Positions 4,471 to 64,000 of a stretch of 64,000 nucleotides of DNA are shown piece after piece. The first letter of the stretch is position 1. Every line of letters starts with the position of its first letter. Origin of the DNA: Archivesica marissinica (Eukaryota; Mollusca; Bivalvia; Venerida; Vesicomyidae). Position numbers and translations under genes: made by a program. The DNA lies in the NCBI GenBank assembly GCA_014843695.1, contig CM026398.1, forward strand, positions 20,259,594 to 20,323,593, written 5' to 3'. The notes under the pieces are model-generated. The model ran no database searches, was not told the DNA's origin, and saw nothing but the letters and a program-made list of their open reading frames with translations.

Positions 4471-5753
4471 ATGGATACACCAGGAAAGGAGAGCACTCCT
4501 GGAGGATTACCCCCGGGGATGATGGACCAGGTTTATAAACAGTTGAGTGAGCATTTTGACTTGGTTCCAAAGTCGGCTCAAGCACCCCCACCGCCCTTGC
4601 CCTTCACTTCTTTCAGAGGCAGACGGTTTACATTCCAGACAACCTTGCAGATAGTACCCCACCAGTGCAGTCTTTTCTTAATAGACCACCTTCTGGATTT
4701 CCTTTTGTTTCAACCCCCAATGTACTTCCATATCCGACACAGTTTTCATCCAACCCTCCTAAGATACCCAGCTTCTCGGGTGATGAACCTATCAACAAGG
4801 GGGAGGTGCCTTACGTTATATGGAGATATGAAGTCCAATGTATGATGAACAATCCGGAAATATCAGCCACCAACCTGTTGTACACTGTGCGCAGCTCCCT
4901 TCGTGGTTCTGCCCGTATGATGGTGATTCCGCTAGGTCAGGAGTCAACACTTGTCCAGATTATGGATAAGCTAGACTGCATGTTCTCAGATGTATCGACC
5001 AAAGAGGACCTGATGACAGAATTTTTTAATTCCTCTCAGGCAGCGGACGAATCAGTAACATCCTATGCATGCCGCCTAGAAACGTTGTTACAGGCCATCA
5101 TCAATAAGGGTCAGTTACCAGGTGTTGCAATGAATGACATACTTCGTCATAAGTTCTGGACAGGGTTATCCTCGGATATGTTGCGACTACAAACCCGCCA
5201 CAAGTATGATACCCTGGCGGACTACAACCAATTACTTCGAGAAATCCGCAAAGTTGAGAAAGAGATGTTGCGCACTTCGACTTCTTCTAATCTCAACTCT
5301 TCTTCAACTGGTAATGTTCTACAGACAACTCCTTTCTCTAAGAAGGTTTCTGTTAAGAACAATACAGTTACTGCGGACTCAGACGTGCAACAACAGTTTT
5401 CTTTATTGGAAAAGAAAATGCAGTCTCGCTTGGATCAGTTCGATACCAAACTCACTTCCTGTGAGAACATGATAGACCAGAAGATCAACTCCAAGTTCGA
5501 CCAGATTTTACAGAAGCTGGACTCTACCCACAACCAGCAGCAACAACATCAGTCATTCTCTCTACCACCACAACCATTTAGCACCAACAGAGGTCGCGGT
5601 CATAGACCTGGGAGATACAGTGGTGGCAACCAAGCTTCTGGTTATAGTCAGCAGGATTACAATCCGCAAGGATCACACCTGCAGCCGAACTCCGGACCAA
5701 GGTCATTTGGTCGCGGAAGAGGCATTTCCCAATATCGCCAATCGTTAAACTAG
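4471..5753 (+). pseudogene. gag: Gag of Ty3/Gypsy element, one frameshift
   Basis: The likely start is the ATG at 4471 (M-D-T-P-G-K). That frame carries a proline-rich N terminus, then coding continues in another frame that is open from 4560 to the stop TAG at 5751-5753, so one indel lies between 4560 and about 4665. The main body has the motif G-E-V-x-Y-x-x-W-R-Y-E-V and the helical pattern of retrotransposon/PNMA-like capsid proteins. A short coiled-coil-like stretch follows near 5395-5520. The C terminus is glutamine-, glycine- and arginine-rich with repeated RGRG (5589-5730) and has no CCHC zinc knuckle, so RNA binding probably relies on the RG tail. The last codons overlap a -1 frameshift signal. 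Confidence 0.8.
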
Positions 5754-5801
5754 ATACCGTCTCTGTTGAGGGCCAAACAGGGACTGGTGATCAAGTTGCC
5801 C
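5744..5801 (+). promoter_or_regulatory. Candidate -1 ribosomal frameshift signal at the gag/pol junction
   Basis: The heptamer GTTAAAC (5744-5750) is in register with gag (codons TTA, AAC) and is followed directly by the gag stop TAG. After an 8-nt spacer, 5759-5767 pairs with 5776-5784 (9 bp, one G-U). Loop bases 5770-5773 (GGGC) can pair with 5798-5801 (GCCC) to make an H-type pseudoknot. Slipping back one base enters the protease frame, which is open through the junction. GUUAAAC is a known slippery heptamer in arteriviruses. Function here is inferred from sequence geometry. Confidence 0.75.
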
Positions 5802-6730
5802 AAACGAACCCACACCCACCAGAACAACAATTTGCGAACCGTCTTATAGGTTCACCGAATGAACATGATATTGTTATCAACGGCAGTTCTTTTAAAGCCT
5901 TGGTTGATACTGGTAGTCAAGTAACCACTCTTTCTCTTTCTTGTTTCAAGAGACTTTCAGATGTTGTATTACAACCTCTCACCACTCTTGGTCTTGACTT
6001 ATCAATTGCTGATGGTTCACGCATGGGGTACTCAGGTTATTTTGAGTCTACCATCACATTACCGTTTTTATCTGTTTTTAAATTGGATATTCCTGTTATG
6101 GTCATCCCAGACAATAGTTTTAACAGAACGTGTCCCGTCATTGTGGGAACAAACGTTCTTAGAAGGTGTAAGACATTTTTGTCCCCATCTTCAGACAATT
6201 CTACTGTTGACATCCCAGTAGAATGGAAGTCGGCGATGGATAGCCTCGACTCCCGGACCTTCTCAGTAAAAGCGTGCGGTACCAAAACGATTACGGTAGC
6301 ACCATATGAGACAGTTACTATCAATGGGATAGTCCGAAATTTCGACAACAACATCTCATCTGTTGTCACTGAGACACCTGAAACTGTTACAGGTTATACA
6401 GTATGTCCTCGGATTGTTAAAGTCAATCAACAATCCACAGTTAAAGTCCCAGTCAGGATTTGTAATATGACTGCGAAGACTTTATCTTTTAAACCCAAAA
6501 CACAGATTTGTGAAATTTCTGAAGCAACAGTTGTGGATGATCTTTCTACATATATTTGCCAGGATACATTTTCAGATACCTCTCTCGAAGACCTGGGTGT
6601 CAACGTTGACAATACAAATTTGTCTCCGTCTCAAGTTTTGCGGTTTCAACAATCCTGGGTAAATGGAAACATGTATTTTCAAAAGACAGTCAGGACTTGG
6701 GTAAAACAAATCTTGTACAGCACAAGATAG
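5754..6730 (+). pseudogene. Pol: retropepsin protease and linker
   Basis: This is the -1 frame relative to gag, open from the frameshift site. The aspartic protease signature V-D-T-G-S (D-T-G at 5906-5914) is clear, with a flap and second half following (roughly 5990-6170; I-V-G-T-N-V-L). A roughly 170-residue linker then runs towards the reverse transcriptase. The frame stops at 6728-6730, whereas the RT reading frame takes over near 6650. The change has no recognisable slippery motif, so it is a disabling indel. Confidence 0.8.
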
Positions 6731-7542
6731 TGTTAGAGGACAATACACCGTTTAAAGACCCATACAGACGAATCCCTCCAGCCATGTATGAGGAAGTGCG
6801 TCAGCACATAAAGGAAATGTTGGAGGCAGACGTTATTCGAGAGTCTGATAGTCCTTACTCTTCTAACATTGTTTTGATTAGAAAATCCTCCGGTGCACTC
6901 AGGTTTTGTGTGGATTGGCGTCGATTGAACAACAAGACCCGTAAGGGTGCTTTTATGTTACCCAGATTTGACGATACTATTGATGTCCTTTCTTCTGCCA
7001 AATATTTTAGTAAACTTGACCTACATTCAGCTTACTGGCAGGTCGAAGTTGCAGAAGAGGATAAGGCCAAAACAGCTTTTAGTGTCGGAGCACTGGGGTT
7101 TTATGAGTGGAACCGGATGGGTTTCGGACTCACCAATGCACCGGCAGCCTTCCAGCGACTGATGGAAAAATGCATGGGTGATATGCATCTTAGAGAATGT
7201 TTAATTTTCTTAGATGACATCCTTATTTTCTCATCTACATTTGAGGAACACATAGAGAGGATTGAATCCGTCTTTCAACGGTTGGATCAGCATCACTTGA
7301 AGCTTAAACCTTCAAAATGCGAATTCTTCAAGAAATCCGTAACTTACTTGGGTCATGTCGTTTCTGATCAAGGTATTTCTACGGATCCCGGTAAAGTTTC
7401 CGCCGTTAAAGATTGGCCAGCATGTCACGATCTGAAATCTCTGACAATTTCTTGGATTCTCGGGCTACTACAGAAAATTTATAAAGGATTATGCCCAGAT
7501 TGTACAGCCGTTAAACTCTTTATTAGAAGGACATGGTTTTAA
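6655..7542 (+). pseudogene. Pol: reverse transcriptase domain
   Basis: It shows the Ty3/Gypsy RT blocks in order: K-D-P-Y-R-R-I-P, A-L-R-F-C-V-D-W-R-R-L-N, S-K-L-D-L-H-S-A-Y-W-Q, G-L-T-N-A-P-A-A-F-Q and the catalytic F-L-D-D box at 7207-7218, then Y-L-G-H-V-V. Catalytic aspartates are intact. The frame opens before 6655 (W-K-H-V-F-S motif). Near 7442 the true frame changes again, after H-D-L-K-S-L, and the ORF then runs out of frame to a stop at 7540-7542. RNA-templated DNA synthesis would be its role. Confidence 0.9.
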
Positions 7543-8806
7543 CCAGAAAAAATCCAAGAAAAAGACCAAGCAGAAGACCAAGACACCCGTTCCATGGATA
7601 TGGGGTGATGCCCAGCAAGCTGCCTTTGATACAATCAAAGATAAATTAACATCACACCCAATCTTGGCATATGCAGACTATTCCCAACCTTTTATTCTGC
7701 ACACGGATGCATCGTCCCTTGGATTAGGAGCAGTACTATACCAGGTCCAAGACGGGAAGGAGCGTGTTATTGCATACGCATCCCGAAGTTTGAGACCCAG
7801 CGAGAGGAATTATCCCGCCCACAAGATGGAATTTCTAGCCCTTAAGTGGAGTATCACAGATAAATTCCATGACTACTTGTGTGGGAATGACTTTAAGGTG
7901 GTTACTGACAATAATCCCTTAACCTATGTCAAAACCTCTGCAAAGGTTGATGCAACAGGCCACCGTTGGCTAGCAGAATTAGCCAATTACAATTTTTATA
8001 TTGAATACCGTAGTGGCAGCCAAAACGGAGACGCAGATGGTTTATCTCGTCGATACGTATTTCAAGAAGAAATGAAAGCGATTTTTCAAGGTGCTGTAAA
8101 TGCTACACCACTTGTCGACTGTGTATCAGATTCGGCAGTTCCTCATTCGGCCGATGAGGAGATGTTTGAATCTGAACATGTCAACAAGATTGACTGGAAA
8201 GCTGAGCAATTGAATGATTTTACCATTTTAAGGGTGATTGACCTCCTCGAAAGCGGTTTTCTTCCCAGGGGGAGAGGATCCGAGTCAAAAGCTGTACAGC
8301 GTTTTCTCCGAGAATGGAACAGACTTCATCTCGATGAGGGAATTCTGTACAGAACCGCTTTCTTGGACGGCCAGTCAGTTCGTCAACTTGTTTTACCTGA
8401 ATCCCACAGGACTATTGCCTTGAAGGGTATTCATGACGATGCTGGTCACCAGGGCAAGGAAAATACCCTTTGGCTGGCCAGACAACGGTTTTACTGGCCT
8501 GGGTTGGAAGAGAATGTTAACAAGTACATCACCAATTGTAGCTCATGTATTAGACGGAAGATCCCTGTCAAACCTTTCGCCGAGCTTGTACCAATTTTTA
8601 CCTCTAGACCTATGGAGCTAGTGTGCATCGACTTTTTAAAGCTCGAACCTAGCAAAGGTGGTGTGGAAAACATACTGGTTATAGTGGATCACTTCACCAG
8701 ATATGCTCAAGCAGTGTCATGTCGCAACCAGACTGCACAAACCACTGCCAAGGCCTTGTATGACCATTATTTCCGGTTTTATGGTTTTCCCGAGCGACTT
8801 CAGTGA
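7445..8806 (+). pseudogene. Pol: RNase H and N-terminal half of integrase
   Basis: The frame resumes at 7445 with the end of the RT connection domain (F-L-G-F-S-G-Y-Y). RNase H follows, with its acidic residues in H-T-D-A-S (7700-7715), H-K-M-E-F-L-A-L and V-V-T-D-N-N-P. The integrase zinc finger (H-D-D-A-G-H...C-S-S-C, about 8430-8550) and the first catalytic aspartate (V-C-I-D-F) come next. The frame ends at TGA 8804-8806 because of an indel near 8800; integrase continues in the next frame. Confidence 0.88.
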
Positions 8807-10070
8807 CCAAGGTCGAAATTTTCTTAGTAGGACTATACAGGAACTGTGTAAGCTCACGGGCATTCGTAAAAGCCGTACAACGCCGTACCACCCTATGGGT
8901 AATGGTTCAGCAGAACGATTCAACGGCACTCTTCTGCGCATGTTTGATACCTTAGAGGAACACCAAAAGAGCGACTGGAAATCGTATATCGCCCCTCTTG
9001 TTCAGGCATACAATGGTACCAAGAGTGACGCAACCGGTTTTTCGCCACACTATTTAATGTTTGGGTGGCATCCTCGACTTTCTGTCGATGCCTACTTAGG
9101 TACAGATCCACAAGACATTGGTGAATTCACACCTACGACATATGTAGCCAAACTAAAGAACCGGCTAGAATATGCATATAGGGCAGCTGCCAATGAAGCT
9201 GGCAGGCAGGCTGCCAAGAACAAGGACAGGTACGACTGTAAAGTTCGTGAGTCCAAGATAGAAGTTGGAGACCGTGTACTTGTAAAGAAAGTCGGTATCA
9301 AGGGGACACATAAGCTAGCAGACAGATGGGATCGCGACCCCTATGTTGTGCTAGCTATACCGAACCCCGACATACCAGTATTTCGTGTACAACTTGAGAA
9401 TGGCAAAGGACCAATCCGGACGTTGCATAGGAATATGCTCCTGCCATTCAATTGTGTACCCAGAGATACACCGACGGTGGATGTAAGTGTAGAATCTGAG
9501 ATAGGCCCTATCCGCAAGGAGTTGGCCAGAACCAATCTCAAGACACCACCAGTACATGTACCTCACGCAATCCAATCTGATAGTTCCGATTTAGATAGCG
9601 AAGGCGAAAGCGTCAAACTATACAGACCTCCAGCTTTGCGAAAGCATAATCACCCTGGATTGCTGCCTCCGACGATACCTAGGATGGTTCCTGCTACTAC
9701 TGGTAGTCCAACCCATATTCCTAGCCGTATCGTCGAGAACAATCCAGGAGTGCGACACTCAACCAGATCTAACTCTGCGACATCTCAACCCTCTGTACCC
9801 AGTTTACTTGGTACCGGTAGTACGATACCTGACTCTTCACAGATTCATGATATATCTTATAACACCACCTCAGAACCATCAGTACAGAGATCTGTCTCAC
9901 ATTTAGAGTCCATAATAGACCAACCTGTTGTCGTCCCTGCTGGCAATGCCCAAACTCCTGAACCGACCCGTCGTCCGGTGCGCCAAAGGAAGCCACCGGA
10001 CCGGTATGGAGAATGGGTGGTCCCATTGACAGCAGTACCAAACACTGACAAGGTTGTGTACTATGTGTAA
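8790..10070 (+). pseudogene. Pol: integrase catalytic core end and C-terminal domain
   Basis: It contains the second and third integrase acidic positions (S-D-Q-G-R-N-F near 8805 and N-G-S-A-E-R-F near 8900), then a GPY/F-like C-terminal module (V-G-D-R-V-L-V...L-A-D-R-W...P-Y-V-V). A serine/proline-rich tail with P-P-D-R-Y-G-E-W ends at TAA 10068-10070. No chromodomain is evident. The role in the element would be insertion of the cDNA into host DNA. Confidence 0.88.
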
Positions 10071-33530: not shown

Positions 33531-34640
33531 ATTTTGATGAATCTTCGTGAATATATAGAGGGTTGATCTAGGAGAAAGTCATATGATTTCGGGAGAAATC
33601 TGTAACTGCGTGTGATCAAGCATGTGTGTCCATTCTCATAGACTTCAATCAGTAATTGATAGTAAATGATTTATGCTTGTAATACAAAGACATATAGAAC
33701 ACCTGTATAAAACCTTGTATTACCTTTCTAATAAGCCATACTCCGGGACCATGAGGTTGAGTAATCCAGGTTCGATCCCCCGTCTGACCATAATAATATT
33801 AAGTCTTTCAGATGGAACTTTAAACCAAGGCCACGTGTCGGTGCTGTGCACGTAAAAGAATCCGAGGAGACTCTGGAATGGATCTTTGTCTGTATCGTTG
33901 ATATAGGAGGAAGTCGTATGATTTCGGGAGAAATCTGTAATGGCGTGTGATCAAGAATGTGTGTCCATTCTCATAGACTTCTATAGTAAATGATTTATGC
34001 TTGTAATACAAAGACATATAGAACACCTGTATGAAACCTTGTAATACCTTTCTAATAAGCCATACTTCGGGACCATGAGGTTGACAGACGGATCTGTAGT
34101 CCAGTGGTAATCCAGGTTCGATCCACCGTCTGACCATAATAAAATTAAGTCTTTCAGATGGGACTTTAAACCAAGGTCTCGTGTCGGTGCTGTACACCGT
34201 GCACGTAAAAGAACCAGAGGAGACTCTGGAATGGGTCTTTGTCTGTATCGTTGATATAGGAGGAAGTCATATGATTTCGGGAGAAATCTGTAACTGCGTG
34301 TGATCAAGCATGTGTGTCCATTCTCATAGACTTCAATCAGGAATTGATAGTAAATGATTCATGCTTGTAATACAAAGACATATAGAACACCTGTATAAAA
34401 CCTTGTATTACCTTTCTAATAAGCCATACTTCGGGACCATGAGGTTGACAGACGGATCTGTAGTCCAGTGGTTAACACACTGGACTGGTAATCCAGGGAT
34501 TGCAGGTTCGATCCCCCGTCTGACCATAATAATAAAAGGTACTGTGCACGTAAAAGAACCAGGAGACTGGAATGGATCTGTATCATTGCACTATTCTCCA
34601 AAAATCTACTAATCTCTTCAGGAGGCGTCGCTCATATTGA
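33530..34640 (+). repeat. Three tandem copies of a roughly 365-bp unit carrying SINE A
   Basis: The segment 'gtcatatgatttcgggagaa' to 'accatgaggttga' is repeated from about 33575, 33910 and 34265. Each copy carries a plus-strand SINE A head of different completeness (33735-33905, 34080-34262, 34446-34636). The third has the fullest head, including 'gttaacacactggactggta', so copies 1 and 2 are deletion variants. Confidence 0.85.
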
Positions 34641-39663: not shown

Positions 39664-39668
39664 TTATT
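39663..39668 (-). terminator. AATAAA overlapping the stop codon of the SAMD9-like gene
   Basis: Read on the minus strand the end is GAA-TAA-AAG, so the stop TAA lies inside AATAAA. If this hexamer is used the 3' UTR is only about 10-30 nt. Other candidates further downstream cannot be ruled out. Confidence 0.4.
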
Positions 39669-42600
39669 CATAAAACACATCTTCTGGTTCAAGGGCATGT
39701 GTGTCGATATACTCTTCCGCTTTGACCTCATTAAGTTGGTCTTTATGTATCATTTCTTCACATGCTGTGCACGGCATCGACTCGTCGACACTCCTGAATT
39801 CCACTGTTGCACTACATGACGAGCACCCATGTCTCTTCAACAATTTTACATTGAATGCTTCATACCCATGCTCTACACTGAAAGCAAGGTTGAACTCGAC
39901 TCTTTGACCTGCATAACGTGGTCCTTCTAGATGGACTAGTTTCGGAATGTAAAACATGTGAACAGCTGAATCAACGTTTAGTTCAATCTCGATGAGACCA
40001 GCATACATTCTGCTATTTGGATGGCATATGGTGCCTTTGCATACCGCCAAATCCATAAGACCTCTACCAGCCTCTTTGTTTTCATTTAATCCAATACGTC
40101 GGGTTGCCGTCTGTAGAATTTTTATGCCATCTTCAGAGGTACCTAGCCATTCCCGTGGATATTTTGGACGTATAATTAAGCCATTCTTTCTACGCAGCTC
40201 TGCTTTCAGACTAAAGGCCCTTAAGAGACACTCAGTTTTTCCAGGTTTTGATTCTATGCAAAAGCCGAGAAGGCTGTTCAGGACAAACAAGTAGTATGTA
40301 GACATCGGCGACCGAACAAGATGATGCCAGTTTTGGACATGCATCAGTACTTCCTCGATTGGATATGTCTTTCTACAAATGTCTTGTCGAATGGCGAACA
40401 TCCATTCCCGATAATCATACTCTATTTCTTTCTTCCCCAGTTTCTCACCAACGCCAGTACTGTGTATCTCCTGGAACATGTGTTCGTACAAATCTATGAT
40501 TGCATTAAATGCGCCTTCATCATGAACACTCTCAATGCTTAGAAGTTGCGCACCATGTTGGAGTTTTAATGACGTTATTTGTAATCGGATTTTGCCAATC
40601 TCGTCGTCGGCTAACAATGATTCTTCAGGCAATACCTGCTTCTTGAATAAGGTGTTGTACCATTTTACTAGCTTCTTCAACGAATGTTGGTCTTCAGTTT
40701 CCAAATGGACATCCATGTAACATTCAAGAATCAGTCTCTCTATCTTTTGAATGCTGATCTCAACGAAGATTTTACTGTCGTCATCGGCTGAAGAATCGAG
40801 GAATTCTTTGAAGATCATACCTGTTTCAGCCGTTGCTTTGAACTGCCTCACAATGTAGTCACAAATCTGTAGTCGTACTTCTATCTCGCTAGTGAAGGCA
40901 TGTGTGAAAATGTCGCATACATATGGAGTCATTTCTCTACTCTTTGTGAAATACTCACTTGCCATTTCTGCAGTTTCCACTAAATCTCTTAGTTTCTCAT
41001 TGAATAATAGTTCTGTAGTCGTGTGGTCATGTTTCAATTTTCCAGTCAAAGAACTAATTCTGCGTTTCTTGACAACACCATACATGTGGTATATATGCAT
41101 GAGCGTTGATTTCATTGAGTCGTCAAGCTCATTCTCTTGTTTACCTTTGTTCTTTTTCTCACACAGTTTTATCGCAGTTCTAAAACAAGATTCTGCTTTT
41201 TTCTCATCATCAGGTCCACAAAATGCATGGAAACGCCCGACATGTGCGTGGTAATTCGGATCATCTGGAAATGAACTTGATAATTTTTCAAGTAACTGCA
41301 GTCTTTCTGTAAATAATGGTTTGCTGGCAGGTACATCAAGTAATAGTTGAGACAGTTGTTGCTTCTTTCTAATGTCATGTTCCACATCTTCGCCTCTGTC
41401 CCGTTCATCTCTATGTATAAATGTCTTTGTCAATATATGTTGCAGAGTGCGACAATGGACACTGTGCTTTGTATTCTTGTTGCTGCAATATTCGATAAGC
41501 CCTTTGCAAAATGGTGCCAGGTTTCTACAAGCATTTGCACTAAGAGAGTCAGTTCGGGGTTTTAAATGTGTCTTTATATTCCTAGACAGTACTTGCTCGA
41601 GAATTTCTTTTGCAATCTCGTAATGACAAATCCTCACTGTATTCTTCCTTTTGTTCTGTGTATCGTGTACCACAAATTCTGTTATTGGATATTGGAAATC
41701 TTCATTTAATGTCATAGTATAATCCGACGGTTTGTGGAACAATGGAGCAAAGAACTGGCATGGGACTGACGTCTGTCCGTAGAAATACACGAGGGATAGG
41801 TAACCTAAGCATTGTTGCCACGGCAATAACTCTGCAGTTGGATTCTTTTCTAACTGTAAGTATCCTTTAACATAGGAAACAAGACCCCTGAATTCATGGT
41901 GATAGACCGTCATTCCAAACTCGTACATGTAGTGGAGTGTCTTTTTCTTCTTTACGTCGTCTCTCATTTTGTTGAGTCTTTTTTGCTTCGTGCTACTACA
42001 CCTTTCTCCGAATTTTGTTGCTAACATATTTGCCTCGTTTGCAGATACCAGTCCAGACAAGTAGACCCTGTCCATCTGAAGTTTCTCACCAAGCTTCTGC
42101 ATGTTCCACGGAAATCGTTTCACGTGGATTATTATAGTATGTTTCAAAGTGTTACAAAGATACTTGACTTTTGTGTCATCTTCGCCATCGATAAGCAACA
42201 GTACAGGTAGCTGTGTCTTCTCGTATAAAAACGATACTTTTCTTTCGAGGTCCTGTGATTTCAGAAACGTTCCAGCTCTTGCATGAGCACATGGAATGCG
42301 CTTATGGAATTTCCACAAAGCTCTTTGGGCTAATGTTGTGCCACCTGAACCGGGAGCATGAGCAATTGTAACAACTGATGCTTTGTAGTTCTCAATGTTT
42401 CTCTGTATATTTTCTTCTAATTTTTTCAACCCATCTCTTTCTATATCAATACTGTCGCCTTCATTGTTGTATCTAGCAAACCAGTGTAATGTACCACCTT
42501 TGTAAAATTTCATAATTTCCTCATCAAAGTCTTTCTCATCTGTTGAGCACTTTTTGTATGGATTTCGCAAATACAGAATTTCAAGATCTTCCCTCAGCCA

Positions 42601-44468
42601 CACTGCATCCTTCTCTGGAATGATTGGTGAAAGACATGTATTTGCTGTTGGTAGTTCATACTGGAAAACGTTACACTTTTCTTCAAAAATGTGATTGCCT
42701 ATGCCGAGACAAAGCTGGCTAAGATCGAGCTTGCACACATGTATACTGCCAGAGTATTCATGACATAATGCTTTGAACTGTATAAGTCCTACTTCGGTGG
42801 CTGGTTCTTCATTTATGCACAGTATAATTCTTGGGCTGTGCGTAACAATTTCCACAAGTCTATCCAAATATTTCTTGATAAATGGTACCAACTGTTCTTT
42901 TTTTGGCCACAGAACAACGACTGTAAAAACAGCATAATCTTCTGCAAATTCTGCCAATTGATCACAGTTGTTCACCAGACCAGATTTTGTCATTTTGAAC
43001 CAGCTCTGGGGTGACTCAATGAGTCCATCAGTACTATCCGTTCTTGATCCAGATATTTCACGGCGCCCACGAAGAAAGCACCAATATGTCCCATCTTCCG
43101 TTGGATAAGGTGGATCATCTCTCCAAGTTCCTATGCGAAGATGGCGTCTTTTCTCAAGCGGATTTTGCACAGCGTTGAACAAACCATCAGAACAACTGTA
43201 AACATCAAAGTCATATACAGCTATCCAATCTACGAGTGAAAGATTTGCCAAGTTGAGCTGTTTATTTGAAACGTCTCCAGACAACAAGATGAAACTCCCC
43301 TTTTTGAAACCATTAACATAATCCCAAAAGTCTGTAAAGTCCTTACCTATTTCCAGCATGTTTACACCTGATACTGGTTCCGTATGTGGTTCATTGCGTT
43401 TGTGTTCTGTATATTTGTCATTTGTATAATCACTGTTGCTGTCTTTGTCATTTACCTGAATGGACACGCTGTCCCACATAGGCTCAGCTGGTGCCATAAC
43501 AGTCTGTATAGTTCCTAAGAACCATTGGTATATAGAACCGATAGTTAAATCAGTAGGGGGACAAACAACATTGCATGAACCTCTCCTGTACCACAATTCA
43601 TTTTCTTTCAACAAAACATCGGCCTTTTCACATGCTCTTTTAACAATACTTGGTTGCCCATTACCACAACTAGAAGCAATTTCTATCAGACCAAACATTT
43701 TTAAATCGTACTCAATAACTGAATAGTTATATGTTGGTCTCATTGTAAATAAGTCAGTCCTAAACAGTCTATCTGGTTCGTATAGAGCTACATCAAAATC
43801 TTTTTTTGCACCGTTTAGCTGCAATACCCCTTCGACCTTCTCCACTCCGATGACAATGTGTGATTTTGTTCTCTGTGGTGTGTTCCACATGCATACGATG
43901 TCTTGCATGCATTTCTCAGGATTATCAGCATATACCACATGGCCAGAAACAAACATTAGATCTCTATCTTCTTGTTTAGCTACAAGATCTTTAAATTTCT
44001 TTATGATTGCATTTTCTTCCACATGATCAGATACAATTTCCCTAGCGAGAGGCTTATGAATTTTGTCTTTAGGTTTATTAGGTTTCGTTTGTTTCTTTGT
44101 CACTTCATTCCAATCCTCTTCATCATCTGAACTATTTGAAGAAATTGATGATTTTCCAGACATTTCGCCATTTTCAATGGACAATTCGAGTCTATTGGCA
44201 TGAGATTCATGTTCTTTCTCTCTAACTAACGCGACGTAAAGCGTTTTCCTTTCTTGGCGAACATGAAAGTCACAGTTGTGCAACAAGATGAAATCTTTCA
44301 GTGTCATGCCACATAATTCTTCAAAAGGTTTTGCATCACCTTTCTGTAGTATTTCTTTGACATGTTCTTTCAATTCTTTTATCTGCATTGGTTTCTTTCT
44401 GCCTTTGAGAACATTTTTTAGCACAAGAAGACCCGTATCAGTTTTGTCTTTGGTGTGTTTTATTTGTT
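39664..44468 (-). CDS. SAMD9-like main exon (AlbA-like, SIR2-like, NTPase, TPR-like, OB-like, Zn-ribbon-like)
   Basis: A single uninterrupted frame of about 1600 codons. Using residues counted from the in-frame ATG at 44478: about 165-330 AlbA/Schlafen-like (V-S-G-H-V-V-Y, S-H-I-V-I-G-V); about 380-640 SIR2-like; about 695-715 G-T-L-H-W then P-loop A-P-G-S-G-G-T-T-L-A; Walker B L-P-V-L-L-L-I-D-G-E-D-D near 755; a long helical/TPR-like region about 1030-1400; OB-like about 1490-1540 (V-E-F-N-L-A-F-S); C-S-S-C and C-T-A-C about 1549-1571. The P-loop, Walker B and OB patterns match SAMD9. That ATG is preceded directly by an in-frame TGA and followed by 'atttcag', so it is more likely an acceptor than a start. 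Confidence 0.88.
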
Positions 44469-46602
44469 CTGAAATCATTCACGATTTGTATTATTATAGT
44501 AATTTGTGACTTATAATGTATATACATTTATAGATACAGGCATATTACGGTATATACTGTAGCTGAAACCTCGGTACTAAATGCACATGAAACTAAAAAT
44601 GAAGTTTCTATCTTTTATGCTTTCCAATGAAAATATAGTTGTTCAGTGAAAGATAAACAACTATCACTGTAATGAAATAGTGAGTGAGTAGTTTGTTATT
44701 TGAAGTGGCCGAGTAGTTACGACTGTTATCAAATTACTGGCCCCTCACCATCGTATGTTCGAATCCCACTGGGGTGACCGTGTCAACTTCTTTCATGTGA
44801 GAAAGGTATCCAGCTGTATGCGGCAGATCGGTGGTTCTATCTGGGCACCTGAAATAACACAGTACGTGATGAATGCCCTGCCATAGCCAAATAGGTTACA
44901 CCCAGACTGGAAATAGTGACTACGATGGACAGACAGACACACAGACAGTGCAAAAACTATATGCCTCCCTTTGGGGGCATAAAAACAAATAAAGCAAAAA
45001 GTACCTGTTATTTGTATAAAATTATAGACCGTGCACTTTATTGGTATATAATGGTTTCATAGGTGTGTGTGTGTGTGTTTTACGTTTTTTTATCGTCGCT
45101 ACCGGTTGCCCATATGAGCGATGCCTCCTGAAGAGATTAGTCATTTTAGATTTTTGGAGGATATTGAAATGATACAGACAGAGACCCATTCCAGAGTCTC
45201 CTCTGGTTCTTTTACGTGCACGGTGTACAACACCAACACGAGACCTCGGTTTAACGTCCCATCTGAAAGACTTAATTTTTATGGTCCAACGCGGGATCAA
45301 ACCTGCAGTTTCATAGGTTATTGGACAATTGTTATTTTTACTGTTACTCAACATGTACTTGTTTTCAACAATATACTATGCCTAATATTTGTAGAACCCT
45401 TAAAAGGGACACGTCAATGTGCTCAACACTGAAGTATCTGAAACAACAGTTTCATGGACCACATTTCAAATTATATGGCATTAAATTTTGTACTACCTAG
45501 CCACATATTGAAATTTATAATTACCTCTGGTGCTTTTGCTAGGTTCAACATTATTGGTGACTGTGTTAGTCTGACCAACTTGTACCACGTTACAATTCAG
45601 AATGTTGACCACCTTCTCTGCACCTACAGCAACTGAAAACATGAATTGCATGTATACATGTACGTTATTTAAATGTATTTGATGCATTTGAAGAACGAAC
45701 CTTGTCATGTCATAACATTCTTTTCTTTCGAACCTTGTCATGTCATAACATTCTTTTCTTTCGAACCTCGTCATGTCATAACATTCTTCTTTTTTTTCGA
45801 ACCTTGTCATGTCATAACATTCTTTTCTTTTTTTCAGTGCAAAATATATTGATAGATATAGAATTTCTACTTATCAAAAACACTGCAATATGTGATTTTG
45901 TCCACACTTTTGAGTAACCCCACATAAATACCTGATTAACTACCATATAGCCATGCAGTGTACATACCTGATTAACTACCATATAGCCATGCAGTGTACA
46001 TACCTGATTAACTACCATATAGCCATGCAGTGTACATACCTGATTAACTACCATATAGCCACACAGTGTACAACTGATTAACTACCATATAGCCACACAG
46101 TGTACATACATACCTGATTAACTACCATATAGCCACACAATGTACATACCTGATTAACTACCATATAGCCACACAGTGTACATACCTGATTAACTACCAT
46201 ATAGCCACACAGTGTACAACTGATTAACTACCATATAGCCACACAGTGTACATACCTGATTAACTACCATATAGCCACGCAGTGTACATACCTGATTAAC
46301 TACCATATAGCCACACAGTGTACAACTGATTAACTACCATATAGCCACACAGTGTACATACCTGATTAACTACCATATAGCCATGCAGTGTACATACCTG
46401 ATTAACTACCATATAGCCATGCAGTGTACAACTGATTAACTACCACATAGCCACACAGTGTACATACATACCTGATCGAGATGTTTTACCAGCAGACTTT
46501 CTTTGGCGTTTCTTTGGCATTGTCTATCTGGTCCACAATGTCTACATGTATAGTCTATAGAATCCTTGTCTTGCATATATGATAATGTAGTGTTTGTAGA
46601 CT
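39664..46602 (-). CDS. RHIM-tagged SAMD9/SAMD9L-like STAND NTPase, predicted 3 coding exons
   Basis: Model on the minus strand: start exon 46520-46472 (with 5' UTR back to an acceptor at 46602), RHIM exon 45632-45525, main exon 44468-39664. Both introns are GT-AG and phase 1 and join without a stop, giving 4962 nt (1653 aa). The order is a basic N terminus (M-P-K-K-R-Q-R-K), a RHIM-type core V-Q-V-G-Q-T-N (residues 33-39), a possible winged-helix/LOTUS-like segment, then the SAMD9-family series: AlbA-like, SIR2-like, P-loop NTPase, helical repeats, OB-like, and a CxxC...CxxC tail. Human SAMD9 and SAMD9L (about 1590 aa) are interferon-linked antiviral and growth-restricting factors that cleave tRNA and repress translation. 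RHIM motifs build amyloid signalling complexes (RIPK1, RIPK3, TRIF, ZBP1, fly Imd). A cytosolic immune sensor is inferred. The splice model needs transcript support. Confidence 0.78.
44695..44985 (+). repeat. SINE-like repeat, tRNA-derived head
   Basis: The head 'gtggccgagtagttacgact' and 'atgttcgaatcccactgggg' is tRNA-like. It ends with 'ctatatgcctccctttgggg', a common invertebrate SINE/LINE tail. Confidence 0.6.
45065..45312 (-). repeat. tRNA-derived SINE family A
   Basis: It matches 27295-27562: 'gtcgctaccggttgcccata', 'cattccagagtctcctctgg', 'cttttacgtgcacggtgtac'. Confidence 0.75.
45525..45632 (-). CDS. SAMD9-like exon 2, RHIM-type motif
   Basis: 108 nt, acceptor gttttcag|TTGCTG and donor ACCAGAG|gtaatt, phase 1 at both ends. 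It encodes V-A-V-G-A-E-K-V-V-N-I-L-N-C-N-V-V then Q-V-G-Q-T-N-T-V-T-N-N. The RHIM consensus is [IV]-Q-[IVLC]-G-x-x-N; the residues here are V-Q-V-G-Q-T-N, with asparagine-rich flanks as in other RHIMs. Being symmetric in phase, the exon could be skipped without changing frame. Confidence 0.75.
45693..45836 (+). repeat. 33-bp minisatellite, 4 units
   Basis: The unit is 'cgaaccttgtcatgtcataa' plus 'cattcttttcttt'. It sits about 60 bp upstream of the RHIM exon in the sense of that gene. Confidence 0.88.
45935..46470 (-). repeat. 36-bp minisatellite carrying a 5' splice site copy, about 15 units
   Basis: On the minus strand most units contain 'ttaatcag|gtatgtacac', a close copy of the real donor 'gatcag|gtatgtatgtac' at 46471. 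The array starts directly at the exon 1 donor. Shortened units with 'aatcagttgtac' have lost the GT. Confidence 0.88.
46472..46602 (-). CDS. SAMD9-like start exon (5' UTR plus 16 codons)
   Basis: The acceptor is atttacag|AGTCTA at 46603-46604 and the donor GATCAG|gtatgt. In the frame required by the RHIM exon there are two stops, then ATG at 46520 (context gacaATGcc, A at -3) and M-P-K-K-R-Q-R-K-S-A-G-K-T-S-R-S. The basic cluster resembles a nuclear localisation signal. The acceptor implies a further upstream noncoding exon. Confidence 0.65.
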
Positions 46603-51451: not shown

Positions 51452-52801
51452 TTAACCATCTGTGCTCAAGGAAGCTCTAAAATCAGTCTTGTTTTTCCGC
51501 ACCATGCTAAAAACACGTTCCTCTTCAGCATTGCTGTGCGTAATGATAAGTAGAACCTGCGCAACTTTGAATAGTAATGGTAATTTGCCCTTAATGTACA
51601 TAGACCACACAACATCCATTCGAAGGAACCGTTGCTGTGTTCCATCGGCCATCTGATCAGACAGATGCTTCTTTCTCAACATAATCAGGGAGATCAGGAA
51701 GTAGCTGATACTCCTTGAATTGCTCAGTAAATATATCCATTTATCCGTTGTTCAACTAGTATAAATTATACTAACAAATCTTAGTATCGTGGAAAAGGTC
51801 TGAAATTATAATGACCTTGTTTTAGCAAACGTATAAATCTAACTACAAAAACAATCCACGCGATAACTAACTAATAACAGATAAATAAATTCATTGTTGT
51901 TTAAAAGTCAGGGTCGGGAAACCTACCAGAACCACAGTTAATTTAAACAGCTACATTTCAAGATGTGAACATCACTGTTCCACTATCTGCTCACAAGTGA
52001 CCCGTTAATTGTGTAGTACAAAAAATGTTACACACTACACAAGAAGTGTGCAACTTCAACCCAGCCAATCTGACAACTCCTGCTTATCAATGCATATCAT
52101 TGTACCCATACTTGGAGATTATGTCTTTGTATTGTCTGTGTTTACAATTTAGTGACCACTATTATATAATAGTTTTATTGATTGGATTGAACATGTTGTT
52201 ACTCTTATATTAAGAAATTATTGATTGATTATATTTATTTTGACCTGGAAAAACTACTTTTGACATGGGTTACATCCATCTCACGATCTGAAAAATGTAG
52301 TAGTCGGGGAAACCTCTCTACAAAGTACAGTACGTTCGCAAACGAGACGTCCAGTCGCTGCTCAAAGTCTACACATTTAGCATGCCCGAGCAACAGATCA
52401 TTGTATGGAAATGTTTTGACAACATATTTGGCAGTCTCGGTGTAAAATTCAAGTGCTGCTTCTAGAAATTTCGATTTCTGAGCTGGTGCAATATCACCTT
52501 CATTTTCAAGTTTATTCAATGTTTGCCTTGTTGTGAAACCAATTTGTATGTCATCAAGACTAAGTAAGTTGTCAGAATTTGTAATGTCAACTTCAAGAGG
52601 AGACACTGCCTCCTTCAATGGCCTAACTTTGACAAACTTGATCAATAGTTTACGCAGGAAAGACTGCATTTCCGCGTCAAGCAGATGCGTTCTAGGCTCT
52701 TCCGTCTGCAAAAAGAGGCTAAATGCCACAAACTGTTGCAAAACAAACTGGTAAAAGAGCAGATTTATTTCAGTCATATGGTCCTGAAAAGAACTAGCCA
52801 T
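51452..52801 (-). pseudogene. hAT-transposase-like C-terminal region, broken
   Basis: The segment 52801-52235 (188 codons) and the segment 51740-51452 together resemble the C-terminal part of hAT-family transposase-derived proteins. The second part has the dimerisation signature S-N-A-E-E-E-R-V-F-S-M-V-R-K-N-K-T-D-F-R. About 480 bp of AT-rich DNA without a matching frame separates them, and the 51.7-kb part contains a stop, so the gene is broken. The N-terminal zinc finger and catalytic core are absent. No target duplication was found. Confidence 0.6.
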
Positions 52802-54329
52802 GCCATCTAGGTTGTTTGTCCTAACCCGACACTACATAGCTTTTTAAGGGCTGGTACATTTCCAGTGTACGGGTTACAGCGCTTTCTAAACTCAGTCGGC
52901 GGGTGCGGGACTCGGCAGTTTTCGGGAGCCAATCATAAGTGATTATTAACGAACGGAGAGTTCCGACATCGGTTCCGAGTAGTTACTAGTGTTCAGCGCG
53001 ACGATCAGTTTCAAATATAGCCTTGAGACATTCTAAAAATAGCAATTTGGGAAACCTAATGTGTTGCGATTTTAAAATAGCACGGCTATTAGTGTAGGTA
53101 AATCGTTTTTTAGAAAAAGCGTGACAATATTAAAGATACGCGTGAGAGCGTGATTTGAGGTCTAAAAGCGTGAGTCAGACTTGACATATAATAACAAGTT
53201 GGTACAACGCATGTATCAGACATATATTTAGCACTGAAATAAAGCGGTCAACTAATCTATACTCAGTATAATACTGCTTGAGTGGTGGACAATGACAACT
53301 TATATAATATCGTAATCGTTAAGCTGAGTTTTCCTATCTGTGATTTACATTGTGCACATAAAAGAACCAGATGAGTATTTGCAATGGGACTCATGATTGT
53401 ATCATTGCGTTGAACATCACAATAATACTCGAAGAATACTATGGCATGTGTTAACATTGTTTCTTTCCAATGAATAAACAACTCGGTACACAAAATGAAA
53501 ACAACAATTTATTGCTCCCAAAGAGGCTGTAAAACTCTCACAGTAAAGCATGCAATTCATGAAACAACGTTACAGCGATAAGTGATACAGAGATGCACGA
53601 TACAAGTGGATTAGAGTAAAACTGTAATGAGAGACATTGGTCAGTTACTGCCCCCTGAATATTCTTTAGGAGGATAAGTCTTCATAATTCGTTTCCTCTG
53701 TTTTTATCGTTGTTTCCTTTGCACAACATTCTATGAATTTTCATCCACTTTCTCATCTTATAATTATTAAATTAGTAAATCTCGACAGATGTCCTACAGT
53801 ATCTACAATGGATATTTCACTGTCAAATATTGTCAACAGTAAGAAAGGAGTCCAACTAAAAGGATCAATATACATTTCTGGATAAATCAAACTTTATCTG
53901 TCAAGGGAGGTAATAGAAATTCCAGCAATGTCTCTCATTACAGTCGAACTAAATTGTAACAATGTATCTCAACCTGTTGCTATTTCATACACATATTTAA
54001 ACATTAAAACACACCTTAATATTTCTTTCATTCCATTTTATCACATAAAAATAGTCTTAACAAATTATTTTTTTAAAACCGGTTTTAATTCGATTTTTTA
54101 AAGTTATATTGCTGTTCAAACAAACAAACTTGTAATGTAAAAGTAAAGTATGTTTGTTTATTATAGTGTCACCCCTATTTAAAGGACCAGCCATTTCTGA
54201 CTTATTAGACACCGCTTTTTATGAACATCAGTACTTCCTGAATCCTATGCTTGTATGCCAGGCGCCAGGCTGGTAGGCAATCGGTAACCATTATTTAACT
54301 AACTGGCGGCTCATCAACCGGCCATATCA
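52802..54329. other. No gene seen
   Basis: A SINE A-like scrap ('cattgtgcacataaaagaac') sits at 53348-53367. The rest carries no protein-like frame. Confidence 0.4.
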
Positions 54330-62113: not shown

Positions 62114-63212
62114 TTAATAAACCGTTGACAACATTCCACGCCTAGTCAGAGGTCGATCCTTTAAAGTGATTCTGAATTGGAAGGTATCAGACTCGAGACA
62201 CCAATGGATTCCCAATGTTCTCTCAATTGGGAGTTTGTCCGAGACGATGTCAACATCTTTGAGGTCTTTGGCTCTGTCCTCATGTTGCATATGTGCAATA
62301 ACGTCCTTTACGTTAGACACAAACTTGTGTTGCCTAATCCCGGCTTTACCACACAGAGCCTTACCGTGGTCAACTAAACGTACAGCTTCCTTAACACTAG
62401 GAACATACTTCAAACTATGATGTGGAATATACATACTTGCCCATTCTCTCATGGATCCAACTCAGAAACTCGTTCTGCATGTCCGTGATTCAAAAGTTCC
62501 TGCATGAACTCACAGTATTGTCGGCGGAATGTTTCTTCTCTTTCTAATCTTCTTTGCAAAGATTTGAGTCTACTTAAAGCCGCAGACTTGTTATTCGGAA
62601 GACACGGTTCTTTGTCTTTGAAAGGCAATGGCAATGCCCATCTTGAAAATGTATACCCTCAGACAATGTGGCAAGAAACCGTTTATCCTGCTGTGATATG
62701 TATGCGCGATCAACACCTATATCAATGAAATCACGTTCCATTATTCCCAGGACATCACTAGCTATCACTTCCTTCACTTTAGTTCTCAATGAAAACAGAT
62801 CAGGGGCTGGTTGAGAGCTAGTATCACATTTGAGTGAGTCAATCACTTCACGGGCAAGAATCCGACACCGAGGATCAATCACTCAGACAATACTCCATCC
62901 AAGATCGGTTCTCTGACCATATGGTCCATCACCACTAGACGCAATTACCTCGCGAGGAACAAGGGCACGTGGACAATTGTACACAATGAGCAAACCAATT
63001 TCGCAATCACGCAATGGTATCAGATGCTCCGCAATAGGTTCCAAATGCGGCCAAACTGTAGCCGTATCTGGTGTAGGAATATGTGAACGATTCGCTGGCA
63101 TGAGATTCCTCGTATACGCATCTGGAAGACAGATATTGACCTCACTATCGAACCCACGCACCATCAGACCTTTAATTTTACGACTTGATACGATTGTATT
63201 TTCTGAATGCAT
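62114..63212 (-). pseudogene. BEL/Pao RT flanks with the active site deleted
   Basis: Successive frames encode the linker, the pre-RT region (F-L-A-T-L-S-E-G-I-H, R-Q-Y-C-E-F-M), then Y-I-P-H-H-S-L-K-Y fused to a post-palm block ending L-T-R-R-G-M-L-S-T. The Y-V-D-D box and surrounding RT core that normally lie between are not present. Confidence 0.7.
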
Positions 63213-63440
63213 TGTGGAGACAACTTAACATCTGCTCCTGTTATGCCAAGAGCATCACACATGTCTTCAAGAATGAACGTAGTGTCGGACTGTGTGTCCA
63301 ACAATGCATAAACTAGTTTTTCGCTATCTGGATTGTCACAATGGGAAACATACACTGGTGCAATTGTAGCGCATTTACTTGCTATGCTTCCGTTGCCAAG
63401 AGATACTGCTTCAGTACGGCTAGCATGTACACCGTGTGGT
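63164..63440 (-). pseudogene. BEL/Pao aspartic protease
   Basis: A-L-L-D-T-Q-S-D-T-T-F-I-L-E is the BEL-type protease active site (D-T-Q-S-D in place of D-T-G-S). The frame breaks at about 63200 and the domain continues in another frame. Confidence 0.7.
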
Positions 63441-63692
63441 AATTGGTAATTTGACTGTCTTACAGTCGAGATCTTCGTGTTTTCTTTTGTTTTCTGCCGA
63501 TTGTGGAGACGTCCGTATATCATCATGCAACGAAGTTGGGTGAAATTTCGAACAGATCTTACATTTCTTCCTCTGTTTACACCATCTGGAAATATGATTA
63601 CATTGAAGGCACACAAAACAAAAACGTGTGTCCTTTGCAAATGATTTCCTTTCGCTCAGAGGTTTATTTAAAAATAACGTACAGTTATCCAA
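63420..63692 (-). pseudogene. BEL/Pao Gag zinc-binding C terminus
   Basis: The open frame carries C-F-V-C-L-Q-C-N-H-I-S-R-W-C and C-K-I-C-S-K-F-H-P-T-S-L-H, the paired knuckle pattern usual in BEL/Pao Gag proteins. Confidence 0.72.
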
Positions 63693-64000
63693 ATCATGAG
63701 ATCTCTCATAGAGTAAGCAGAAAGACTTGCGTGTATTTTCAGGGTTATCTTTATTCTCAATAGTCCCAGACAGGAAAGCACGGTATTCCTATTTTCTTGC
63801 ATACGCCTAGGTCTTTGCAACCTTTGATCCTCGACAAAGGGCTTTAAAGACTGGAGAGAAGTGACTGGATCACACGCAATCTTTGCCTCCTTTGTGACAA
63901 CGTGTATAAACTCTTTGAATGGAGGAAAATACTTCCTTTCGTCCTTCCTTTGCGAAGCAATTCTGTCCCATCTTAAAATTATTCAATCTAGGAGCCTTGT

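Follow-up and report, generated by a model that had tools for sequence, protein, structure and literature searches.

Assembly of immune signaling complexes through the RHIM is known from several animal proteins. Its core tetrad is given as (V/I)-Q-(V/I/L/C)-G (PMC9444067), and a RHIM or RHIM-like motif is described as serving immune assembly in TRIF, ZBP1 and fly Imd (PMC7885112, PMC9444067). In fungi, PNT1 is reported to combine an N-terminal RHIM-like PP motif with NB-ARC and TPR; this PP motif is reported to activate HELLP, and PP and RHIM prions to cross-seed partly (PMC7885112). The SAMD9 family is recognized by a GGT/S variant of the P-loop, its N-terminal SAM domain is unneeded outside vertebrates, and the N-termini of the family are swappable, homotypic modules (SAM, CARD, Death, Pyrin, FIIND) (PMC5445408). 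Human SAMD9 carries a tRNase-SA domain for which E184, E196, E218 and D241 are given as putative catalytic residues and K198 as a residue that binds nucleic acid, and the triggers of SAMD9 are described as unknown (PMC13245274).

The gene described here lies in a 64-kb stretch of DNA on contig C13 of the bivalve Archivesica marissinica (the whole analyzed stretch is referred to as the window), whose genome was surveyed over 1.54 Gb. Its three exons are predicted to encode a SAMD9-family protein of 1653 residues that has VNILNCNVVQVGQTNTVT as its N-terminal motif.

Structure of the SAMD9-like gene

The gene is encoded on the minus strand of the window. Exon 1 (46520-46472) begins with an ATG, encodes the basic N-terminus MPKKRQRKSAGKTSRS and ends at the donor CAG/GTATGT. 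Exon 2 (45632-45525, 108 nt, phase 1-1), bounded by the acceptor TTTTCAG and the donor GAG/GTAATT, contains the RHIM-type motif, with the core NCNVVQVGQTNTV at 45597-45559. Exon 3 (44468-39664), the SAMD9-like body, follows the acceptor ATTTCAG and is an open frame that closes with the stop TAA; the ATG at 44478 is intronic, 10 nt 5' of this exon. Joined in phase 1, the three exons yield 1654 codons with the last codon as the sole stop, and the splice consensus and single terminal stop bear out the preliminary description, which had proposed three exons joined in this phase in a stop-free frame.

The three-exon model is supported by homologous N-termini in Mercenaria mercenaria: those of the gene models LOC123528446 and LOC128547990 (MAKKRNRKS.../MTRKRTRKS... 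EKVINIKNCHTVQIGQTN) correspond to exons 1 and 2, and the bodies of these two models are 68-69% identical to the window protein. The basic start is common to the Mercenaria models and to the first-exon candidate of a paralog on contig C4, likewise basic, which reads MPAKKNKRRQKR followed by gtaatt. The earlier claim that the RHIM-type exon forms the N-terminus of the SAMD9-like gene thus finds matching N-termini in the Mercenaria models and like exons at both paralogs, and a chimeric gene model was rejected in view of the relatives and paralogs that bear the motif.

Intron 1 holds a 36-bp minisatellite of 15 copies (window 45928-46467) that starts at intron nucleotide 5; the sequence of the 5' splice site (CAGGTATGTA) recurs in many of its units, so that they form a series of potential decoy donors. 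Elsewhere in the window, frames at 4560-10070 (plus strand) look by eye like those of a Gypsy-type retroelement, with gag-like, protease/RT-like and RNase H/integrase-like parts, and fragments at 62114-63982 (minus) resemble, likewise by eye, a BEL/Pao-type retroelement. Transposase-like fragments, also recognized by eye, lie at 51452-52831 (minus); one contains DDIQIGFTT, a RHIM-like tetrad that is probably a chance occurrence. A tRNA match at 34454-34526 (plus), scoring 32 bits against a gathering score of 29, is possibly a tRNA-derived repeat.

The exon 2 peptide

The VQVG of exon 2 satisfies the RHIM core tetrad, and the spaced asparagine fits as well. In a phmmer search of 177,635 distinct PDB sequences, the 23-residue window peptide matched only RIPK3 RHIM chains (three of three matches, with weak E-values of 0.26-0.29), aligning as VVNILNCNVVQVGQTNTVT over LVNIYNCSGVQVGDNNYLT. 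A flanking control peptide had no match in the PDB; when searched singly, neither paralog's peptide had one, nor did that of L008, another RHIM-type locus of this genome. Because their rows were chosen by the motif, the following profile and column results are partly circular: a profile of 12 family N-termini gave four PDB matches, all to RIPK3 (E 0.016-0.53); a profile of nine, which omits the window protein and its two closest relatives, gave five, two to RIPK1 and three to RIPK3 (E 0.37-0.78); mean pairwise identity among the 12 sequences is 71% in the core columns and 17% in the flanks; and Q and N are present in 11 of the 12 rows and G in all 12.

RHIM profiles had been proposed earlier as a check on the exon 2 peptide. 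Pfam RHIM (PF12721) matched the window motif at 13.2-15.5 bits according to the stretch given, under its curated gathering cut-off of 20 bits, which is a detection threshold and no biological definition. At E<=1 the same profile found three of the 12 family N-termini (best E 0.0022), and in whole-protein scans it found one of five relatives (P0002, 12.9 bits). On these sequence comparisons, we conclude that exon 2 carries a RHIM-type motif of the RIPK3 kind and is a putative amyloid former.

A chance origin of the motif was rejected on shuffle tests of the window and three upstream stretches. The pattern [VI]Q[VI]G..N occurs once when all six frames of the window are read, with no second instance in the 64 kb, and on average 0.19 times in a dinucleotide shuffle (100 shuffles); [VILC]Q[VIL]G..N, if an N is required a short way ahead of it, also occurs once, against 0.08 per shuffle (100 shuffles). 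The looser pattern [VILC]Q[VIL]G..N was observed once in the upstream 2.5 kb that adjoins the big exon, and 4 of 400 shuffles produced it; each paralog also has one observed instance upstream, for which the shuffle counts were 6 and 9 of 400.

Paralogs and bivalve relatives

Three SAMD9-like loci were found in the genome: the window gene, a neighbor on C13 about 26 kb off in divergent orientation (48% identical to the window gene), and the gene on C4 (33% identical). Both paralogs have an upstream RHIM-type exon on the gene strand with clean splice sites and phase 1-1, at C13:20328304-20328408 (FKNCQIGNNNTQV) for the neighbor and at C4:7097646-7097777 (SSHNVQIGDGNTIVN) for the C4 gene. A Mercenaria relative of the latter, LOC128558571, which likewise has a basic start, reads MPSKKNKRKQRR ... 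NVQVGHGNVI. An alignment-based protein search returned five proteins, of which only P0057, the neighbor paralog, was new.

The closest named relatives come from the clam Mercenaria, followed at greater distance by Dreissena and Mya. Among eight NCBI-named bivalve gene models, the core is canonical in four (P0002, P0004, P0014 and P0059) and degenerate in three: VVIGHSN in Mya, which is without the Q, and IQYGTHN in Sinanodonta and IQQGAHN in Potamilus, the two freshwater mussels, with QYG and QQG. The remaining model, a shorter one from Saccostrea, has no motif. The core of the Dreissena gene model is canonical, and in records P0011 (LQIGKKN) and P0013 (VQIGEGH) the motif stands in one frame with the body. 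Overall, the motif or a degenerate form is present in 9 of the 29 bivalve-type records (P0001-P0021, P0057-P0064) and absent from 20, a count to be read with the fact that the motif-less P0001, P0057 and P0058 match, as single frames, genes of the A. marissinica genome itself, the motif lying in the upstream exon, and that other motif-less single-frame records may be cut likewise and miss their upstream exon.

The N-terminal motif was thus sought among other mollusc SAMD9-like genes and found in Mercenaria, in Dreissena and at both paralogs. From the Mercenaria N-termini, the paralog exons and the Dreissena core, the RHIM is read as an N-terminal module common to a bivalve SAMD9 subfamily and not as a chance splice.

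The SAMD9-type body and its tRNase-like domain

The SAMD9-family identity claimed in the preliminary description was confirmed by PDB matches to SAMD9, a GGT P-loop, a predicted tRNase/AlbA-like fold and a SAMD9-like C-terminal half. As a single sequence, the exon 3 frame matched SAMD9 in the PDB with an E-value of 1.9e-9, and positions 360-809 of profile A1, built from 11 relatives, matched SAMD9 chains over the SIR2-NTPase region (E 2.5e-23). Along the minus strand, a predicted model places a LOTUS-type winged helix at 44218..44466 (about frame residues 5-87) and a SAMD9 tRNase/AlbA-like domain at 43504..44004 (about residues 159-325), so that the LOTUS-type domain sits between the RHIM and the tRNase-like domain. 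LOTUS-type domains are associated with RNA binding. These are followed by a Walker A variant, HAPGSGGTT (42334..42360), in which glycine replaces the usual lysine, and a Walker B-like LLLIDGEDD (42175..42201). The model of the C-terminal helical-repeat and beta region (39838..41328) superposes on human SAMD9 1057-1589; the alignment reaches SAMD9 residue 1589, with the C-terminal beta part, where the family has an OB-fold, taken together with the helical repeats. Two features by which SAMD9 members are known, the AlbA/tRNase-SA fold and a TPR-like helical array after the NTPase, are predicted by the model. The P-loop pattern H.PG.GG[TS], which reads HAPGSGGT in the window protein, recurs in all 29 further proteins listed, P0022 included, and Pfam scans of the window protein gave no match to a SAM domain.

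On a reading of their sequences, the C4-type gene and its Mercenaria relative P0059 keep the RHIM and seemingly lack the LOTUS- and AlbA-like parts, a layout that looks as if RHIM and NTPase were a minimal unit; the freshwater-mussel relatives P0063 and P0064 look as if they had kept the LOTUS-like part.

By count along fish sequences, E196 and K198 of human SAMD9 form an E-[FY]-K motif; of the 39 SAMD9-like proteins of vertebrate type, 34 have it as CHE[FY]K. Over the equivalent stretch of bivalve-type proteins, E/D-[FY]-K was found in none of the 19 (of 29) that have the anchor motif, the 10 others having been left out of the count; the corresponding strand of the window protein reads LMFV, and the relative P0022 has DFK at this site. 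A profile comparison between bivalve-type and fish AlbA regions was weak (probability 1.2-1.6%), with the other catalytic residues ambiguous, and the statement on the active site is for this reason based on a MAFFT alignment, in which P0022 serves as the bridge, and on the lack of E/D-[FY]-K in that stretch. Since the E-x-K motif is missing, the tRNase output of the bivalve-type proteins is probably altered or lost.

Other RHIM-type genes in the genome

A scan of the genome with Pfam RHIM gave 19 matches, three of them over the cut-off (L008-L010), and 15 were retrieved as loci; the scan overlooks the SAMD9-like RHIM exons, as these are absent from its 19 matches. The RHIM-type exon of L008, the best match (C13:13095054-13095107, minus strand; RVVNIVGCKVVQIGKGNKV), closely resembles the window motif and scored 21.4 bits in the genome scan and 19.4 bits in its 127-residue frame. 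Good splice sites would allow this exon-like frame to be joined in phase 1 to an upstream frame of 718 residues (C13:13098204-13096051, minus strand) that looks TIR-like by eye; searches of Pfam, NCBIfam and the PDB gave no support for a TIR in it. Together they form a candidate TIR-like-RHIM gene on C13, a possible partner of the SAMD9-like protein, and if the TIR reading is right the L008 gene would be TRIF-like in layout. TRIF-like TIRs are described as probably gnathostome-restricted (PMC7075850). A CARD-RHIM protein akin to bivalve sequences, BiIV1_006R, is reported from a cockle iridovirus, and bivalve CARD-RHIM proteins are implied by that account (PMC12452177).

Several further loci were rejected as RHIM genes: L009, L010, L012 and L017-L019, which share GIQ[VI]GDHNH, and L013, a near variant, were taken as a dispersed repeat because of their recurrence. 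This repeat swells the counts of the genome-wide RHIM scan. L015, L016, L020 and L022 are short frames, and no partner gene was recognized on reading the frames of L021, which lies in repeat-rich DNA.

A model for signaling and the alternatives

The RIPK3-like motif and its recurrence in bivalve genes suggest a sensor that signals via amyloid-like assemblies. We propose, with moderate confidence, that this bivalve protein is a STAND receptor of the SAMD9 family, with nucleation by the N-terminal RHIM and recruitment of adaptors as its output, perhaps in place of tRNA cleavage. The resting receptor would be closed and would open in response to a viral or damage signal at its C-terminal half or its nucleic-acid-binding-like domains. 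Oligomerization of the opened receptor would gather the RHIMs, which, once clustered, could nucleate a RIPK3-type cross-beta filament. Such a filament may recruit RHIM proteins, either the product of the candidate TIR-like-RHIM gene, which is likewise on C13, or CARD-RHIM adaptors such as those implied for bivalves, and these would lead to cell death or inflammatory signaling. Given the loss of the E-x-K motif, RHIM recruitment may have supplanted tRNA cleavage as the main output. More tentatively, a bivalve RHIM network can be envisaged in which tRNase-dead SAMD9-type receptors act through RIPK3-like RHIMs on TIR and CARD RHIM adaptors. The interpretation first offered, a SAMD9-type protein coupled to RHIM assembly and possibly to necroptosis-like signaling, holds as to the family, the RHIM-type N-terminus and its recurrence, while amyloid assembly and necroptosis-like signaling are unsupported so far; the subfamily-wide spread of the module, the LOTUS-type domain and the missing E-x-K motif go beyond it.

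Two alternatives concern the motif itself. Exons 1 and 2 might be part of another transcript: the exon junctions in A. marissinica are predicted from genomic sequence, and record P0001 begins at the intronic ATG at 44478. However, the motif is fused to the body in the Mercenaria and Dreissena models and in the contiguous frames of P0011 and P0013, and a RHIM-type exon is present at all three SAMD9-like loci found in the genome, so that a gene-model artefact is very nearly discounted. If the exon is real, VQVG might still be a short beta-prone motif in unrelated use that converged on the RHIM, as the brevity of the motif, the sub-threshold Pfam scores and the lack of RIPK matches for the single paralog peptides would allow. 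The likeness to RIPK3 nevertheless exceeds the tetrad (VNI-NC--VQVG--N--T), and the Q, N and G are kept across the rows while the flanks have diverged, which makes convergence clearly improbable.

The other alternatives accept the RHIM and differ on what it does. It may serve self-assembly only, in place of the vertebrate SAM, with the nucleic-acid-binding domains blocking translation and no adaptor involved; SAM domains of the family polymerize (PMC5445408), the tRNase-like fold is retained in the model, and the LOTUS-type domain would suggest RNA binding. Against this stand the missing E-x-K (19 of 19), the C4 gene and P0059, which keep the RHIM seemingly without LOTUS- or AlbA-like parts, and at least one other RHIM-type exon in the genome, and we regard self-assembly as the sole function as rather unlikely. 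Viral RHIM proteins are described as inhibiting host death pathways (PMC9444067), and the cores are degenerate in Mya and the freshwater mussels; the clam protein could likewise be a regulatory decoy that caps or sequesters the RHIM filaments of others. That role is highly improbable given the canonical core in four of the eight named models and in the A. marissinica genome, and given the fusion of the motif to a STAND module, which would be typical of activators.

Comparison with known systems

With SAMD9/SAMD9L the clam protein has in common the tRNase/AlbA fold, as predicted, the SIR2-NTPase region, the GGT-type P-loop and the C-terminal half; it differs in that no SAM was detected, the N-terminus is a RHIM plus a LOTUS-type domain, and the E-x-K tRNase motif is missing. 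Its VNI-NC--VQVG--N--T aligns with human RIPK3, but unlike RIPK3 and RIPK1 the clam protein has no detected kinase domain, its RHIM is N-terminal, and its Pfam score is sub-threshold. TRIF, ZBP1 and fly Imd are not known to be STAND receptors. BiIV1_006R and the bivalve CARD-RHIM proteins show a RHIM-type motif in this group of animals too; they are CARD proteins, and no SAMD9 module is mentioned for them (PMC12452177). Among the matches listed from the open-licence PMC literature there was no RHIM-SAMD9 protein, which does not establish absence from print, and nothing on a RHIM with a LOTUS domain or a RHIM with NACHT in cnidaria; one paper that names both SAMD9 and the RHIM draws no link between them.

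A RHIM at the N-terminus would directly connect SAMD9-type receptors with RIPK3 amyloid signaling, and the clam protein may be a sensor in which adaptor recruitment has taken over from an enzymatic output, the cleavage of tRNA. The presence of a RIPK3-like RHIM in bivalves bears on the age of RHIM immunity; if the proposed network is true, RHIM signaling would long predate vertebrate necroptosis and extend well beyond it, and the amyloid NLR signalosomes of fungi would have an animal counterpart in the bivalve network. No adjacent effector gene with a matching motif was found in the 64-kb window and the 6.7 kb towards the neighbor paralog. The parallel to the fungal amyloid NLRs is closest in PNT1/HELLP, which, as described, has in common with the clam protein an N-terminal RHIM-like motif, a STAND NTPase and TPR, the NTPase being NB-ARC in PNT1 and SAMD9-type in the clam. 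By this analogy, PNT1 would be the nearest working analogue of the mechanism proposed here.
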